A DNA stretch of 64,000 bases, taken from positions 1,488,001 to 1,552,000 of the forward strand of contig NZ_JAJEJV010000004.1 in NCBI RefSeq assembly GCF_021390675.1. Reading direction: 5' to 3'. Of the stretch, positions 46,114 through 50,084 are shown one piece after another (the stretch's first letter is position 1; every line of letters begins with the position of its first letter). A program made the translations under genes and the position numbers. Source of the DNA: Dyella sp. 2HG41-7 (GTDB lineage: Bacteria; Pseudomonadota; Gammaproteobacteria; Xanthomonadales; Rhodanobacteraceae). The notes below the pieces were generated by a model. That model saw only the letters and a program-made list of their open reading frames with translations, was not told the DNA's origin and did not search any database.

Positions 46114-46743
46114 TCAACTCACCCGAAACGCCACAAACCGCATCGCCACCGAATTCATGCAGTAACGCAAACCTGTCGGTTCCGGGCCGTCGTCGAAGAC
46201 GTGACCAAGATGGCTATCGCAACCCGCGCACGTAACGGCGGTGCGTACCATGCCGAAGCTCGTATCGTGGCTCTCGATCACGTTTTCAGGTGCGATCGGC
46301 CGGAAAAAGCTCGGCCAGCCCGTGCCGGAATCAAACTGCGTCGACGATTTAAACAAAGCGGTATCGCACCCGGCGCAGCGGTACAAGCCTTTGCTCTGCG
46401 GCCTTTCGTGTGGGCCGCTGAAGGCGCGTTCGGTGCCTGCGCGACGCATCACGTTGAATGCCTCGTCGGAAAGGCGTTGGTGCCATTGCTCATCGGTGAG
46501 CACCAGCTTGCGCACATCGCACGTTCCAAGACGATGGCCGTCATCGTCCGCGAAACAAGCAAGCTGCACCATTTGAACGCGGTTGTCGGCAGCGGGTGTT
46601 GCGGCTGCCGCGGGGTCGCTTCCGTTGCGTCCCATTAGTCGCAAGGCCGACACGCTGCCGACGGCGATCGCCGCGCCGCCGCCCAAGGCGGTGATCAGAA
46701 ATCGGCGACGATCCATGCTTTTGCTGTCGAATGCGGATGTCAT
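46114..46743 (-). CDS. msrB: Tat-exported peptide-methionine (R)-S-oxide reductase
   Basis: A 209-residue MsrB with a Tat signal. ATG 46743 is preceded by AGGAG six bases upstream, and the twin-arginine stretch DRRRFLITALGGGAAIAVG gives a periplasmic location. The catalytic Cys is C195 in GLRYCMNSVAMRF. The zinc cysteines are C123/C126 (YRCAGCD) and C172/C175 (VTCAGCD). The linker after the signal holds two further cysteines (C63 and C75). It reduces Met-R-sulfoxide in exported proteins. It starts 29 bases after dipZ on the same strand, so DipZ is the likely electron donor. Predicted to be driven by the ECF promoter at 48529. Confidence 0.93.
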   Translation of the reverse strand: MTSAFDSKSMDRRRFLITALGGGAAIAVGSVSALRLMGRNGSDPAAAATPAADNRVQMVQLACFADDDGHRLGTCDVRKLVLTDEQWHQRLSDEAFNVMRRAGTERAFSGPHERPQSKGLYRCAGCDTALFKSSTQFDSGTGWPSFFRPIAPENVIESHDTSFGMVRTAVTCAGCDSHLGHVFDDGPEPTGLRYCMNSVAMRFVAFRVS

Positions 46744-46772: not shown

Positions 46773-48497
46773 TCAACCAAACGTAAACGCGTAAACGCGC
46801 GCGTTCGGATCGAGGAAGGTGATTTCGAAAGTGCGCTCGCCGGTTCCATGCGCTTGGCGCACGAGTTGATAGAGGCGTTGTCCATCGATCGTGCCGTTGC
46901 CGTCGGCATCGATATCGCTGCCGTGATCGTCGCCGGGCGCTTTGCCGTCGAGCGTGACGCGGAATCGCACGGGTTTGCCGTCTTCGCCAGGTCCAAGCAC
47001 CAAATGCAAATCGCGGCCGCGGAAGCGATATACGACGCTGCCGTTCGATGCATCGAGCGTTGCGTAATGCGGCATCACTGTCCAACTACCGTCGAGCGAC
47101 CACTGATTCGCTGCAAGCGTGCTGGGTGCTTTGTAGCGAAAGCTGTCGTCGTGCGCGATCTGCCCGCCTGCAAAGCCGTCGCTGCGCTCGTACCCGACAT
47201 AGGTTTCCGGCGAGCGGCTCATATCGTTGGACCCCGCCGCTTCCGCGCCGGATGCGCCGGGCTGCACATGGCCGCCGGGTAGATCTTTGTAGCCCGCGTC
47301 GCTCAGTAAACGACGGATCACATCTTCGCTTTCGGCGTATTGGCCTTCGCCAAAATGATGCGCGCGGATTTGGCCATGCGCATCGATAAAGTAATGCGCC
47401 GGCCAATATTCATTGTTGAAACCTTTCCAGATGGCGTAGTCGTTATCCATCGCCACGGGATAAGTCAGTTTGAAATCCTTGATTGCCTTGGCGACGTTGG
47501 CGGGATCTTTTTCGAACGCGAATTCCGGCGCATGCACGCCGATGACCACAAGGCCGTGATCGCGATATTTCTGAGCCCACGCATTCACGTACGGCAGCGA
47601 GCGAATGCAATTGATGCAGGAATACGTCCAGAAATCGACCAGCACCACCTTGCCGCGTAGCGACTCCGGCGTTAGCGGTGCGCTGTTGAACCATTGCGTG
47701 GCGCCGGCGAGCGACGGAAGTTCGCCTTCCACCGGTAGCGGCGCATCCGTTTTTGGCGCGGGTTCCGCTTGCACGGGCGCAGGGCGCACCGCGTCGATCA
47801 GCTTTTGTTCGATGCCGCCGGTGCTCGCTAGCGATACGCGCGTCAGCAAGCCGGTGTCCACGCCCAACGCAATCGCCGCCACGCCGCACAACACAAGCAC
47901 ACCCAAGGCGCGACGTACCCATTCGCCTGCGCCCAACGAGCGCTTCATCGCGGCGAACACGCGACCGCCGATCACCAATGCCAGCGCGAGCGACACGGCC
48001 GCGCCGCTCGCATAGGTGAGCAGCAGCAAGGTTGTCTGCACGCTTGCGCCTTGTATCGCCGCGCCGGTCAGCAGCAAGCCGAGGATCGGCCCTGCGCACG
48101 GCGCCCAAAGCAAGCCAGTCGCCACGCCCAAACCTGCGGCGGACCATGGCGAATCCTGCTGTGCTTCGGCTCGCTCGCTCAGCCGATTTCCCAGTTTCAC
48201 GAACGGGCGGCTGATCCATTCGGCGACATGCGCAGAGAGCAAAGTCAAACCCAACACCGCCAGTACGGCCAACGCGATGTAGCGTCCGAATTGGTTGGCA
48301 CGCACCGCCCAGCCGCCGCCCACGGCCGCCAACGTCGCGACCAACGCAAACGTAAGCGCCATGCCGATCAACATCGGTAGCCCGTTGCGTGCAAAAGGCC
48401 GGTCGGCGCGCGCGAAAACGAAGGGCAGCACCGGCAGGATGCAGGGGCTGAGAATGGTGAGGACGCCACCGAGGAAAGCGAGGGTCAACAGGATCAT
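46773..48497 (-). CDS. dipZ: DipZ: CcdA membrane domain, periplasmic thioredoxin domain and C-terminal Thioredoxin_10 domain
   Basis: A 574-residue fusion that carries electrons across the membrane. The CcdA/DsbD-beta part (residues 1-215) has the paired cysteines C19 (LSPCILPVLP) and C134 (WAPCAGPILG). An Ala/Pro linker leads to a TlpA-like thioredoxin domain with SCINC (C294/C297) in VDFWTYSCINCIRSLPYVN. The C-terminal region (about 415-574) is the carbohydrate-module-like DipZ end domain and contains DIDADGNGTIDG, a calcium-loop-like stretch. ATG 48497 is the family-like start but has no Shine-Dalgarno; ACCTCCT lies directly before it instead. Operon with msrB. Confidence 0.92.
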   Translation of the reverse strand: MILLTLAFLGGVLTILSPCILPVLPFVFARADRPFARNGLPMLIGMALTFALVATLAAVGGGWAVRANQFGRYIALAVLAVLGLTLLSAHVAEWISRPFVKLGNRLSERAEAQQDSPWSAAGLGVATGLLWAPCAGPILGLLLTGAAIQGASVQTTLLLLTYASGAAVSLALALVIGGRVFAAMKRSLGAGEWVRRALGVLVLCGVAAIALGVDTGLLTRVSLASTGGIEQKLIDAVRPAPVQAEPAPKTDAPLPVEGELPSLAGATQWFNSAPLTPESLRGKVVLVDFWTYSCINCIRSLPYVNAWAQKYRDHGLVVIGVHAPEFAFEKDPANVAKAIKDFKLTYPVAMDNDYAIWKGFNNEYWPAHYFIDAHGQIRAHHFGEGQYAESEDVIRRLLSDAGYKDLPGGHVQPGASGAEAAGSNDMSRSPETYVGYERSDGFAGGQIAHDDSFRYKAPSTLAANQWSLDGSWTVMPHYATLDASNGSVVYRFRGRDLHLVLGPGEDGKPVRFRVTLDGKAPGDDHGSDIDADGNGTIDGQRLYQLVRQAHGTGERTFEITFLDPNARVYAFTFG

Positions 48498-48528: not shown

Positions 48529-48554
48529 TTCGCTGCGGCGCACGGGGCGGTTAC
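48529..48554 (-). promoter_or_regulatory. Predicted ECF promoter for dipZ-msrB
   Basis: On the minus strand GTAACC (48549-48554) and CGAA (48529-48532) are separated by exactly 16 bases. From memory this is the form reported for the SigF-type ECF factor of Caulobacter, whose anti-sigma is NrsF. A start near 48522 would leave a leader of about 25 bases before dipZ. Confidence 0.72.
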
Positions 48555-48556
48555 AA

Positions 48557-48582
48557 GTAACCGGCGGCGCGGTTCGGGCGAA
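48557..48582 (+). promoter_or_regulatory. Predicted ECF promoter for the sigma/NrsF operon
   Basis: On the plus strand GTAACC (48557-48562) and CGAA (48579-48582) are again 16 bases apart. Its -35 box is two bases from the -35 box of the oppositely facing promoter, making the palindrome GGTTAC-AA-GTAACC. It predicts autoregulation of the sigma factor, with a leader of about 100 bases or more. Confidence 0.72.
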
Positions 48583-48708
48583 TCGCCTTTTAGATAACTG
48601 ACGCCGGCCATCATGCACCCAGTCTTGACCTTTGACGGCCCGTGGGTACTACTACGCCAGCTTCCGCCGAGGAGCGTAGGTAGCCGTAGGACCGTGTCGA
48701 CCGAATCC

Positions 48709-49275
48709 ATGAGTGCCAGCGATCAAGCTGACCGTCAGCGGGCAGCATGGATGGCCGCCGCGCAAGCGGGCGACCAGCGCGCCTACACGCGCGTGCTGAA
48801 CGCTTCGGTGGCGCTGATCCGCGCCGTTGCGCGCCGGCAGGGCGTGGCGGTGGATACGCTGGACGATGTGGTGCAGGAAACTCTGCTCACCGTACACCGC
48901 GTGCGGCATACCTTCGATCCGTCGCGTTCGTATGACGCGTGGCTGTCCGCCATCGCGGCGCGTCGTGCGATCGACACCTTGCGCGGTTATGGACGGCGCG
49001 AGCGACGCGAGGTACATGACGAGTTCGCGCTCGACACACATGCCGAACGCGACGACGCCAGCGCCGGCGCGGAGCGCGAGCAGGAAGCACAGCGTCTGCG
49101 CAAAGCCATCGAGACGCTGCCGCCGGGGCAGCGCGAGGCCGTGGAGCAGCTTGGCCTGAAAGAACGCTCGCTGGCCGAAGCCGCCGAGCAAACCGGGCGC
49201 AATACCGGCGCGCTCAAAGTAAACCTGCATCGCGCGCTGAAAACGCTGCGCGATCGCCTGCATGGAGAATCCTGA
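48709..49275 (+). CDS. ECF sigma factor (SigF-like, NrsF-linked)
   Basis: A 188-residue sigma factor. Region 2 has VVQETLLTVHRVRHTFDPSRSYDAWLSAIAARRAIDTLR (cited by its ends), and region 4 has ETLPPGQREAVEQLGLKERSLAEAAEQTGRN followed by LKVNLHRALKTLRDRL. Start is uncertain: ATG 48709 is used here; GTG 48694 adds five residues and the open frame reaches 48613. The partner at 49282 is an NrsF-type anti-sigma, six bases downstream. This pairing and the promoter motif point to the SigF-like ECF group, which responds to metals or oxidants in other bacteria. Confidence 0.92.
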   Translation: MSASDQADRQRAAWMAAAQAGDQRAYTRVLNASVALIRAVARRQGVAVDTLDDVVQETLLTVHRVRHTFDPSRSYDAWLSAIAARRAIDTLRGYGRRERREVHDEFALDTHAERDDASAGAEREQEAQRLRKAIETLPPGQREAVEQLGLKERSLAEAAEQTGRNTGALKVNLHRALKTLRDRLHGES

Positions 49276-49281
49276 ACCGTC

Positions 49282-49932
49282 ATGTCCGATGCTGCACGCC
49301 ATGAATCCCTGATCGACGCGCTTGGCGCGGAGCTGACGCCCGTGCGGCGTCTGCTGCCGCCGTGGCGGCGTGCGATGGGCTGGCTGCTGGTGGTGGCGGT
49401 GGTGGCGGCGGTGTTGTTCATGCGCAACGGCGCCGCCACGATGTTGCATCGCTGGCACGCCGCGCCCGATCTGGGTGTGGCCGCATGCGCCGCCGTCGTC
49501 ACGGCGATCACCGCGGCGCTGGCCTCGTTCGTGCTCGCCGTGCCGGGGCGTTCCATCGCCTGGGCTTGGGTGCCGGTGCCGAGCGCGTTGGTCTGGATCG
49601 GCGCCAGCGGTTTGGGTTGCCTCAGGGCGCATATTCCAGGCATGCCGGTGCTGAATCTGCACGAGGCCAACGACTGCCTGATTTTCATCATCAGCTTCTC
49701 GGTTCCGCTTTCCGGGCTGATGATCTGGCTGATCCGGCGCGCCTGTCCGCTGCGGCCCGTGCTTACCGCCGTGATGATCGGCCTCGCCAGCGCCGCCGCC
49801 TCGGCGAGCCTGCTGGAGATCATTCACAACTTCGACGCCGCCGCGTCCGACCTGCTGATGCACGCGCTCGCCGTGGCGATCGTAATCATCGCGAACATGG
49901 TGATGGGCGGGCGGCTGCTGTCCCGCACCTAA
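49282..49932 (+). CDS. nrsF: NrsF-family (DUF1109) membrane anti-sigma factor
   Basis: A 216-residue protein with six hydrophobic helices and a short cytoplasmic N-terminus (MSDAARHESLIDALGAELTPVRRLLPPW), the DUF1109/NrsF layout. Typical inner segments are AWAWVPVPSALVWIGASGLGCL and a late NFDAAASDLLMHALAVAIVI. NrsF proteins hold the ECF factor at the membrane and release it on stress, a function shown for Caulobacter NrsF and inferred here. Two cysteines, near the GLGCL segment and in ANDCL, are candidate sensing residues. A further one lies in RRACPLRP. Confidence 0.9.
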   Translation: MSDAARHESLIDALGAELTPVRRLLPPWRRAMGWLLVVAVVAAVLFMRNGAATMLHRWHAAPDLGVAACAAVVTAITAALASFVLAVPGRSIAWAWVPVPSALVWIGASGLGCLRAHIPGMPVLNLHEANDCLIFIISFSVPLSGLMIWLIRRACPLRPVLTAVMIGLASAAASASLLEIIHNFDAAASDLLMHALAVAIVIIANMVMGGRLLSRT

Positions 49933-49939
49933 CCTTTTT

Positions 49940-50072
49940 CCCTCTCCCCTCTGGGAGATGGCCAGGGTGAGGGATCAAGGCTTGCCCCAGACTCCAAAAA
50001 AATCGGCGCTTTGGATGCGGACCGAATGCAAGATTCATCCCTCACCCCAACCCTTTCCCCGGAGGGAGAGGG
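49940..50072. repeat. Inverted pair of REP-like repeats
   Basis: Two related 34-base units in opposite orientation, 49940-49973 and 50039-50072. The first begins CCCTCTCCCCT and ends GGGTGAGGG; the second begins CCCTCACCCC and ends GGGAGAGGG. About 65 bases lie between. This is the layout of a BIME-like dispersed element. It sits at the right border of the msrB-dipZ-sigma-nrsF module, before rsfS. Confidence 0.75.
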
Positions 50073-50084
50073 AGCAAACATCGC

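Follow-up and report, generated by a model that had tools for sequence, protein, structure and literature searches.

Divergent ECF16 promoters serving a sigma factor operon on one side and a methionine sulfoxide (MetSO) repair operon on the other are already known from Brucella. According to the accessible parts of the published account, the BcrS-AbcS system is induced by HOCl and autoregulated, and its sigma/anti-sigma genes lie opposite a divergent Msr operon, bcrXQP, the promoters carrying GTAACC and CGAA boxes. The targets are an MsrPQ-like pair and a methionine-rich peptide rather than DipZ and MsrB, and the two -35 boxes are 38 bp apart (coordinates from Table 1 of that paper), as against 2 bp in the DNA described here. 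In Bradyrhizobium, the available text describes EcfF-OsrA, another ECF16 system, as autoregulated, with a membrane DUF1109 anti-sigma factor and a measured regulon comprising three MetSO reductases, a DsbD-like membrane protein and a periplasmic thioredoxin; its motif is GTAAC(g,a)-N14-15, and back-to-back pairing is not described in that text. The prototype of the group, SigF-NrsF of Caulobacter, responds to chromate and cadmium and shares with the Dyella locus the motif, a sigF-nrsF operon and a DoxX gene among the targets, whereas its other reported targets are two DUF2282-DUF692-DUF2063 (bufferin-type) operons and YedY. More distant parallels, again from partly accessible sources, are provided by Haemophilus RpoE2-HrsE, in which an ECF sigma factor drives periplasmic MsrAB under oxidant stress, and by Neisseria SigE-MseR, in which a MetSO reductase is controlled by an ECF sigma factor; both, however, belong to ECF group 13 and have a small anti-sigma factor (in Haemophilus, a cytoplasmic protein of 67 aa).

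The locus described here, from Dyella sp. 2HG41-7, is very probably an ECF16-like sigma/NrsF stress switch driving its own operon and dipZ-msrB from back-to-back promoters. It would bring a gammaproteobacterial family, with a regulon that is clearly predicted, into the range of the ECF16 oxidant-repair circuit, and among the relatives the distance separating two promoters of a single sigma factor varies naturally between one helical turn and hundreds of bases. A search of the open literature, which took in few subscription papers, found the arrangement described neither for Dyella nor for its family, and no account of helical phasing in such pairs.

Promoter pair, flanking genes and start of sigF

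The window, the whole stretch of 64,000 nucleotides that was analysed, contains only two exact copies of GTAACC-N16-CGAA, one on each strand. The first-pass annotation had pointed to both, and its statement that the motif is that of Caulobacter SigF-NrsF agrees with the published consensus. The plus-strand promoter (48557..48582; -35 box GTAACC at 48557-48562, -10 box CGAA at 48579-48582) faces sigF and nrsF, and the minus-strand promoter (48529..48554; -35 box GTAACC at 48554-48549, -10 box CGAA at 48532-48529) faces dipZ and msrB, as had been proposed. The -35 boxes are separated by two bases (AA) and together build a perfect 14-bp palindrome without strand, GGTTAC-AA-GTAACC (GGTTACAAGTAACC, 48549..48562), also as first described.

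The sigF gene (48625..49275, plus strand) encodes an ECF sigma factor of 216 aa with Sigma70_r2 and Sigma70_r4_2 domains, and nrsF (49282..49932, plus strand) a predicted membrane anti-sigma factor, likewise of 216 aa (PF06532, 8.2e-21). On the minus strand, dipZ (46773..48497) encodes a 574-aa protein with CcdA/DsbD-type membrane, thioredoxin-like and C-terminal Thioredoxin_10 domains (PF02683, PF08534 and PF17991), and msrB (46114..46743) a peptide methionine-(R)-S-oxide reductase of 209 aa (SelR; TIGR00357, 2.1e-51) in which a twin-arginine-like signal, RRRFL, can be read by eye. The module has a nadD-like gene (CTP_transf_like) on one side and rsfS on the other. The distance of about 25 bases originally given between the start of dipZ and its promoter holds, ATG 48497 lying 31 bases from the -10 box and the transcription start being taken 5–7 nt after CGAA.

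To judge from conservation among relatives, sigF most likely starts at TTG 48625, 42 bases past the -10 box of the plus-strand promoter, and not at ATG 48613, from which the frame is also open, or at ATG 48709. The sequence CTTGAC lies 72–90 bp 5' of the equivalent of ATG 48709 in 108 of 113 loci and is in frame with it (at a multiple of 3) in all 108, so the block is read as a conserved TTG coding start. The block CTTGACC...TAGAT, which is conserved in the leader of sigF and resembles a sigma70 promoter, is for this reason taken as the coding start. A CTAGAT-like block among the N-terminal codons of sigF is also conserved in many relatives, and could be a hidden internal housekeeping promoter. 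A weak third site with one mismatch, GTAGCC-N16-CGAA (48680..48705, plus strand), directly precedes ATG 48709; the corresponding position is occupied by an exact match at two other loci (L064 and L069) and by one with a single mismatch at a third (L056), and the site is probably a coincidence. The interval between nrsF and rsfS contains a REP-like inverted repeat (49939-50073), with 40-nt arms that are 78% complementary and 55 nt apart, the core of which is present in a single copy in the window; no Rfam family was found at the gathering threshold between 46000 and 51000.

Conservation and predicted regulon

With up to one mismatch, the window contains eight matches to the motif, against 2.5 expected from shuffles. 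The genome from which it comes has 11 exact matches against 9 for a reversed control, a difference that is not significant. Genome-wide counts of single motifs were therefore dropped as evidence, and the case is built on pairing, position and conservation; exact matches inside ORFs, at L003, L008 and L009, were set aside as chance, and two more, L002 and L006, were counted neither as chance nor as targets. The strict pair pattern (gap 0–30) has one match in the window and none in 100 shuffles. In larger samples, which overlap, it was found in 50 of 233 genomes of the family, 35 of 398 from the order, 2 of 398 from the phylum and 15 of 347 from a family of another class, and the reversed control pair pattern was absent from all genome rows listed for these four samples.

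NrsF was found in 138 of the 233 family genomes, and 116 NrsF neighbourhoods (60 + 40 + 16 from 20 regions), selected by hand and thus non-random, were examined. In 112 of these, SigF is at least 60% identical to that of the window, giving 113 loci with the window itself; the remaining four (L070, L071, L111 and L115) were excluded for having other sigma factors. Sites were called with up to two penalties (a mismatch, or a spacer of 15 or 17) and GTAA fixed, and dipZ or msrB was considered adjacent when within 900 bp. A promoter faces sigF in 113/113 loci (71 exact) and a promoter faces dipZ or msrB in all 104 loci with that gene within 900 bp (89 exact), so that the scan of related genomes suggested in the first-pass annotation came out as expected on both sides. 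In the other nine loci, all from one genus (g6), neither dipZ nor msrB lies within 900 bp, and no opposing motif was found. The distance from the -10 box to the start codon on the dipZ/msrB side is 29–37 bp in 94 of the 104 loci. One letter-shuffle of each intergenic region of the 113 loci gave no exact motif. That the sites are chance matches in GC-rich intergenic DNA, a view to which the near-equality of the genome-wide count and its control lends itself, is extremely improbable given this conservation, the empty shuffles and the recurrence of pairs in the family.

Elsewhere in the window's genome, a second back-to-back pair, with a gap of 4, separates the genes for a DsbD-type membrane protein (ccdA) and a periplasmic thioredoxin (trx). 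The trx site is present in 16/16 genomes of the genus (12 exact), with an opposing site each time. A single site precedes the gene for a lipoprotein-like MsrA in all 16 genomes (15 exact), a paralogous MsrA having the site at only one of the 14 loci given (17 found), and a site precedes the DoxX gene in 5/5 genus genomes that possess this gene. The identities of the ccdA, trx, MsrA and DoxX targets are supported by Pfam. Motif and orthologue conservation alone yield the MetSO reductases, thioredoxin/DsbD-like proteins and DoxX expected of an ECF16 regulon, and the regulon predicted in this way is one of coherent periplasmic methionine repair and electron supply, EcfF-like (Bradyrhizobium) and close to that of BcrS (Brucella). 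The sigma factor thus predicted to be in command probably controls its own operon together with this periplasmic MetSO-repair regulon, as do EcfF and BcrS of ECF16.

NrsF subtype and proposed mechanism

An ECF sigma gene is followed here by an NrsF/DUF1109 (PF06532) gene, with the motif before their own operon and before the targets, as in ECF16 SigF-NrsF. The NrsF is of a divergent subtype: the window type scores 75 bits with PF06532, versus 226–248 for the NrsF of genus g16, and the window sigma factor is 32–36% identical to the sigma factors encoded beside the canonical-type NrsF of that genus. Among the 25 NCBIfam models listed, of 74 matched, only the general sigma70-ECF superfamily model is above its cut-off. 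In two genomes of the same genus as the window, three canonical-type NrsF genes (>200 bits) lie clustered within about 7 kb, at L070 (G079 C1:474000-487000) and L071 (G074 C15:51000-64000); only one NrsF match is present in the genome of the window.

Residue C132 of the window NrsF falls in a column where all 107 rows of the window type, and 15 of the 18 rows from other NrsF proteins, have cysteine, a few genomes being counted twice in this alignment, and it would correspond to C131 of Caulobacter NrsF (C129 of OsrA), one of the two cysteines, Cys131 and Cys181, given for that protein in the accessible text. C113 is, like C132, invariant in the 107 window-type rows, and both are kept in the window. 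At the later position (C179/C181), 95 of the 107 window-type rows have cysteine, whereas the window has isoleucine, and this column adjoins columns with cysteine in 13/18 and 14/18 of the other NrsF rows. The system is therefore filed as ECF16-like and not as a strict member. The peroxide response of OsrA is reported, in the part of the account that is available, to require a cysteine close to this position, so stress sensing by the window NrsF may differ.

In the proposed mechanism, NrsF in the inner membrane would keep the sigma factor inactive until a periplasmic oxidant or a thiol-reactive metal, the signal suggested by homology, inactivates NrsF. The freed sigma factor, with RNA polymerase, would then transcribe the two units, sigF-nrsF and dipZ-msrB. 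DipZ would pass electrons across the membrane to MsrB, presumably as known for these protein families, and MsrB would repair oxidised methionine outside the cytoplasm. The same sigma factor is predicted to drive ccdA|trx, the lipoprotein-like MsrA and the DoxX protein elsewhere in the genome. Transcription of its own operon would yield more sigma factor and also more NrsF, and hence amplification and a brake together. We infer a self-amplifying switch from this layout; the report, in its accessible part, that sigF of Caulobacter is not strongly autoregulated counts against self-amplification, and Haemophilus rpoE2 is described, in a source available in part, as barely autoregulated.

Two holoenzymes bound at such close -35 boxes would probably meet on one face of the DNA. 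From the footprints of RNA polymerase, a gap of 2 bp should preclude the binding of two polymerases at once. Simultaneous binding is thus probably barred, in which case only one of the two directions would be transcribed from each copy of the 54-bp region at any moment. Competition between the two polymerases, as suggested in the first-pass annotation, is plausible from this geometry and is a candidate feature of the switch.

Gap lengths and possible helical phasing

The shared palindrome and its 2-bp gap had also been presented as a functional design, a claim that comparison with relatives does not support. Among the 104 sigma loci with both promoters, a gap of 2 is found in the window only, the remaining 103 gaps ranging from -16 (at L059, an ambiguous assignment excluded from the phase counts) to 294 bp, a variation on the strength of which the palindrome was rejected as an operator conserved at the sigma locus. 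The promoters keep their own spacing and their distance from the start on the dipZ/msrB side, so the promoter, rather than the palindrome, is the unit under selection. It is very unlikely that GGTTACAAGTAACC is the operator of a separate dimeric regulator acting on both genes, with incidental -10 matches: the perfection of the 14-bp palindrome and the near-adjacent inverted -35 boxes at ccdA|trx would fit such an operator, but the boxes of relatives, however far apart, each keep a CGAA partner at 15–17 bp, and upstream of MsrA and of DoxX a box stands alone, again with this -10 partner.

Closely abutting -35 boxes are found again at ccdA|trx, where a gap of 2–5 bp is common (11 of the 16 genomes). 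When 84,980 species genomes were scanned for pairs with a gap of 0–8, ten stretches were returned, with gaps of 1, 3, 3, 3, 3, 3, 4, 4, 4 and 5 and none of 6–8; three are Dyella ccdA|trx pairs, one comes from Humitalea, at a sigF-nrsF locus, and chance may account for some of the others. In Humitalea rosea (L050:1892-1947), the pair, with a gap of 4, faces a 154-aa membrane-like ORF, and the NrsF of its sigma/NrsF pair groups with the window type.

Gaps of 0–30 bp account for 70 of the 104 at the sigma locus, and 67 of these 70 measure 2–5, 12–16 or 22–26 bp, the others being 20, 28 and 29; none lies at 6–11 or 17–19 bp. The third class was recorded as either 20–26 or 22–26, and the narrower bounds are used here. 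The first loci both suggested these classes and served to test them. All 21 gaps of 0–30 bp among the 40 loci added afterwards, nearly all of these gaps coming from two genera, fall within the classes; the 40 loci were taken from NrsF genomes that almost all lack a strict pair (G183 being the exception). Nine of the 16 sigF loci of the last batch are strict-pair matches, of which the first 60 loci also include many. The gaps at ccdA|trx are 2, 2, 2, 3, 4, 4, 4, 5, 5, 5, 5, 13, 15, 15, 16 and 16, and 11 of these 16 were first observed after the classes had been noted. For sigma-locus values collapsed by hand (n=19), the best period within the range of 7–15 tested is 10.5 (R=0.64), and R falls to 0.49 once the nine canonical-type pairs of g16 are included (gaps 12, 18, 21, 22, 24, 24, 25, 26 and 30; six in the classes).

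Relatedness was taken into account by simulation on a SigF+NrsF tree, with 400 simulations per setting, only some null settings fitting the observed spread. In the two settings that match it best, p is 0.013–0.022 for the sigma locus and 0.005 for the sigma locus and ccdA|trx jointly (2/400 simulations in each); ccdA|trx by itself gives a p of about 0.2, and slower or smaller-step nulls raise the sigma-locus value to as much as 0.18. The G081 ccdA|trx gap of 16 is outside the tree used. Outside the genus, only one further ccdA|trx pair was found (G089, gap 48), and the spacing test is not extendable to the family; the other 23 thioredoxin loci there, which are weaker matches, have no pair, and nine have a site facing trx.

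There is an even chance that the two promoters, though real, are independent of one another, with genome compaction alone behind the short distances and shared ancestry behind the quantised gaps. This would suit the 34 sigma-locus gaps outside 0–30 bp, the lack of phase in gaps longer than 40 bp, the partial agreement of the gap classes with clades and the p value for ccdA|trx, where the two classes may derive from one switch, as well as the exceptions in g16 and in the family of another class. It is harder to reconcile with the empty intervals among the 70 short gaps, with the p values for the sigma locus and for both loci in the best-matching settings, and with the repetition of the classes at a separate locus, largely in gaps seen afterwards.

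A quantisation of the short gaps that points to helical phasing is moderately supported; it is partly post hoc, and there are exceptions. Tentatively, and with more doubt than confidence, we suggest that, where promoters of a single ECF sigma factor stand back to back less than about 30 bp apart, they are held in helical register, their -35 boxes being near integral turns of DNA (centre-to-centre distances of about 8–11, 18–22 and 28–32 bp), so that two sigma4 domains or holoenzymes would share a DNA face and interact, either excluding or assisting each other. The one-turn state, resembling the half-sites of a dimeric repressor, would be represented by the window (2 bp) and by the majority of the ccdA|trx pairs (2–5 bp). 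If phasing is true, polymerase cooperation versus exclusion, and the balance between self-activation and target activation, become testable.

Among the 15 pairs in the family of another class, 11 show a gap of 22–25, several having an A/T tract in mid-gap as judged by eye, and the exceptions are three related pairs with a gap of 17 and one msrA|msrB pair with a gap of 10. At L177, one of the pairs with a gap of 22–25, one small flanking protein is DUF2282 (bufferin-type) and the other is without a Pfam match. The three pairs with a gap of 17 (L170-L172:1501-1569), from one genus, have on one side an ORF that by eye resembles a pyridine-nucleotide-disulfide oxidoreductase, unlike the other targets. 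The pair with a gap of 10 (L179:1501-1562) is directed towards msrA on one strand and towards msrB on the opposite one, and both stereospecific repair enzymes could thus share one control point.
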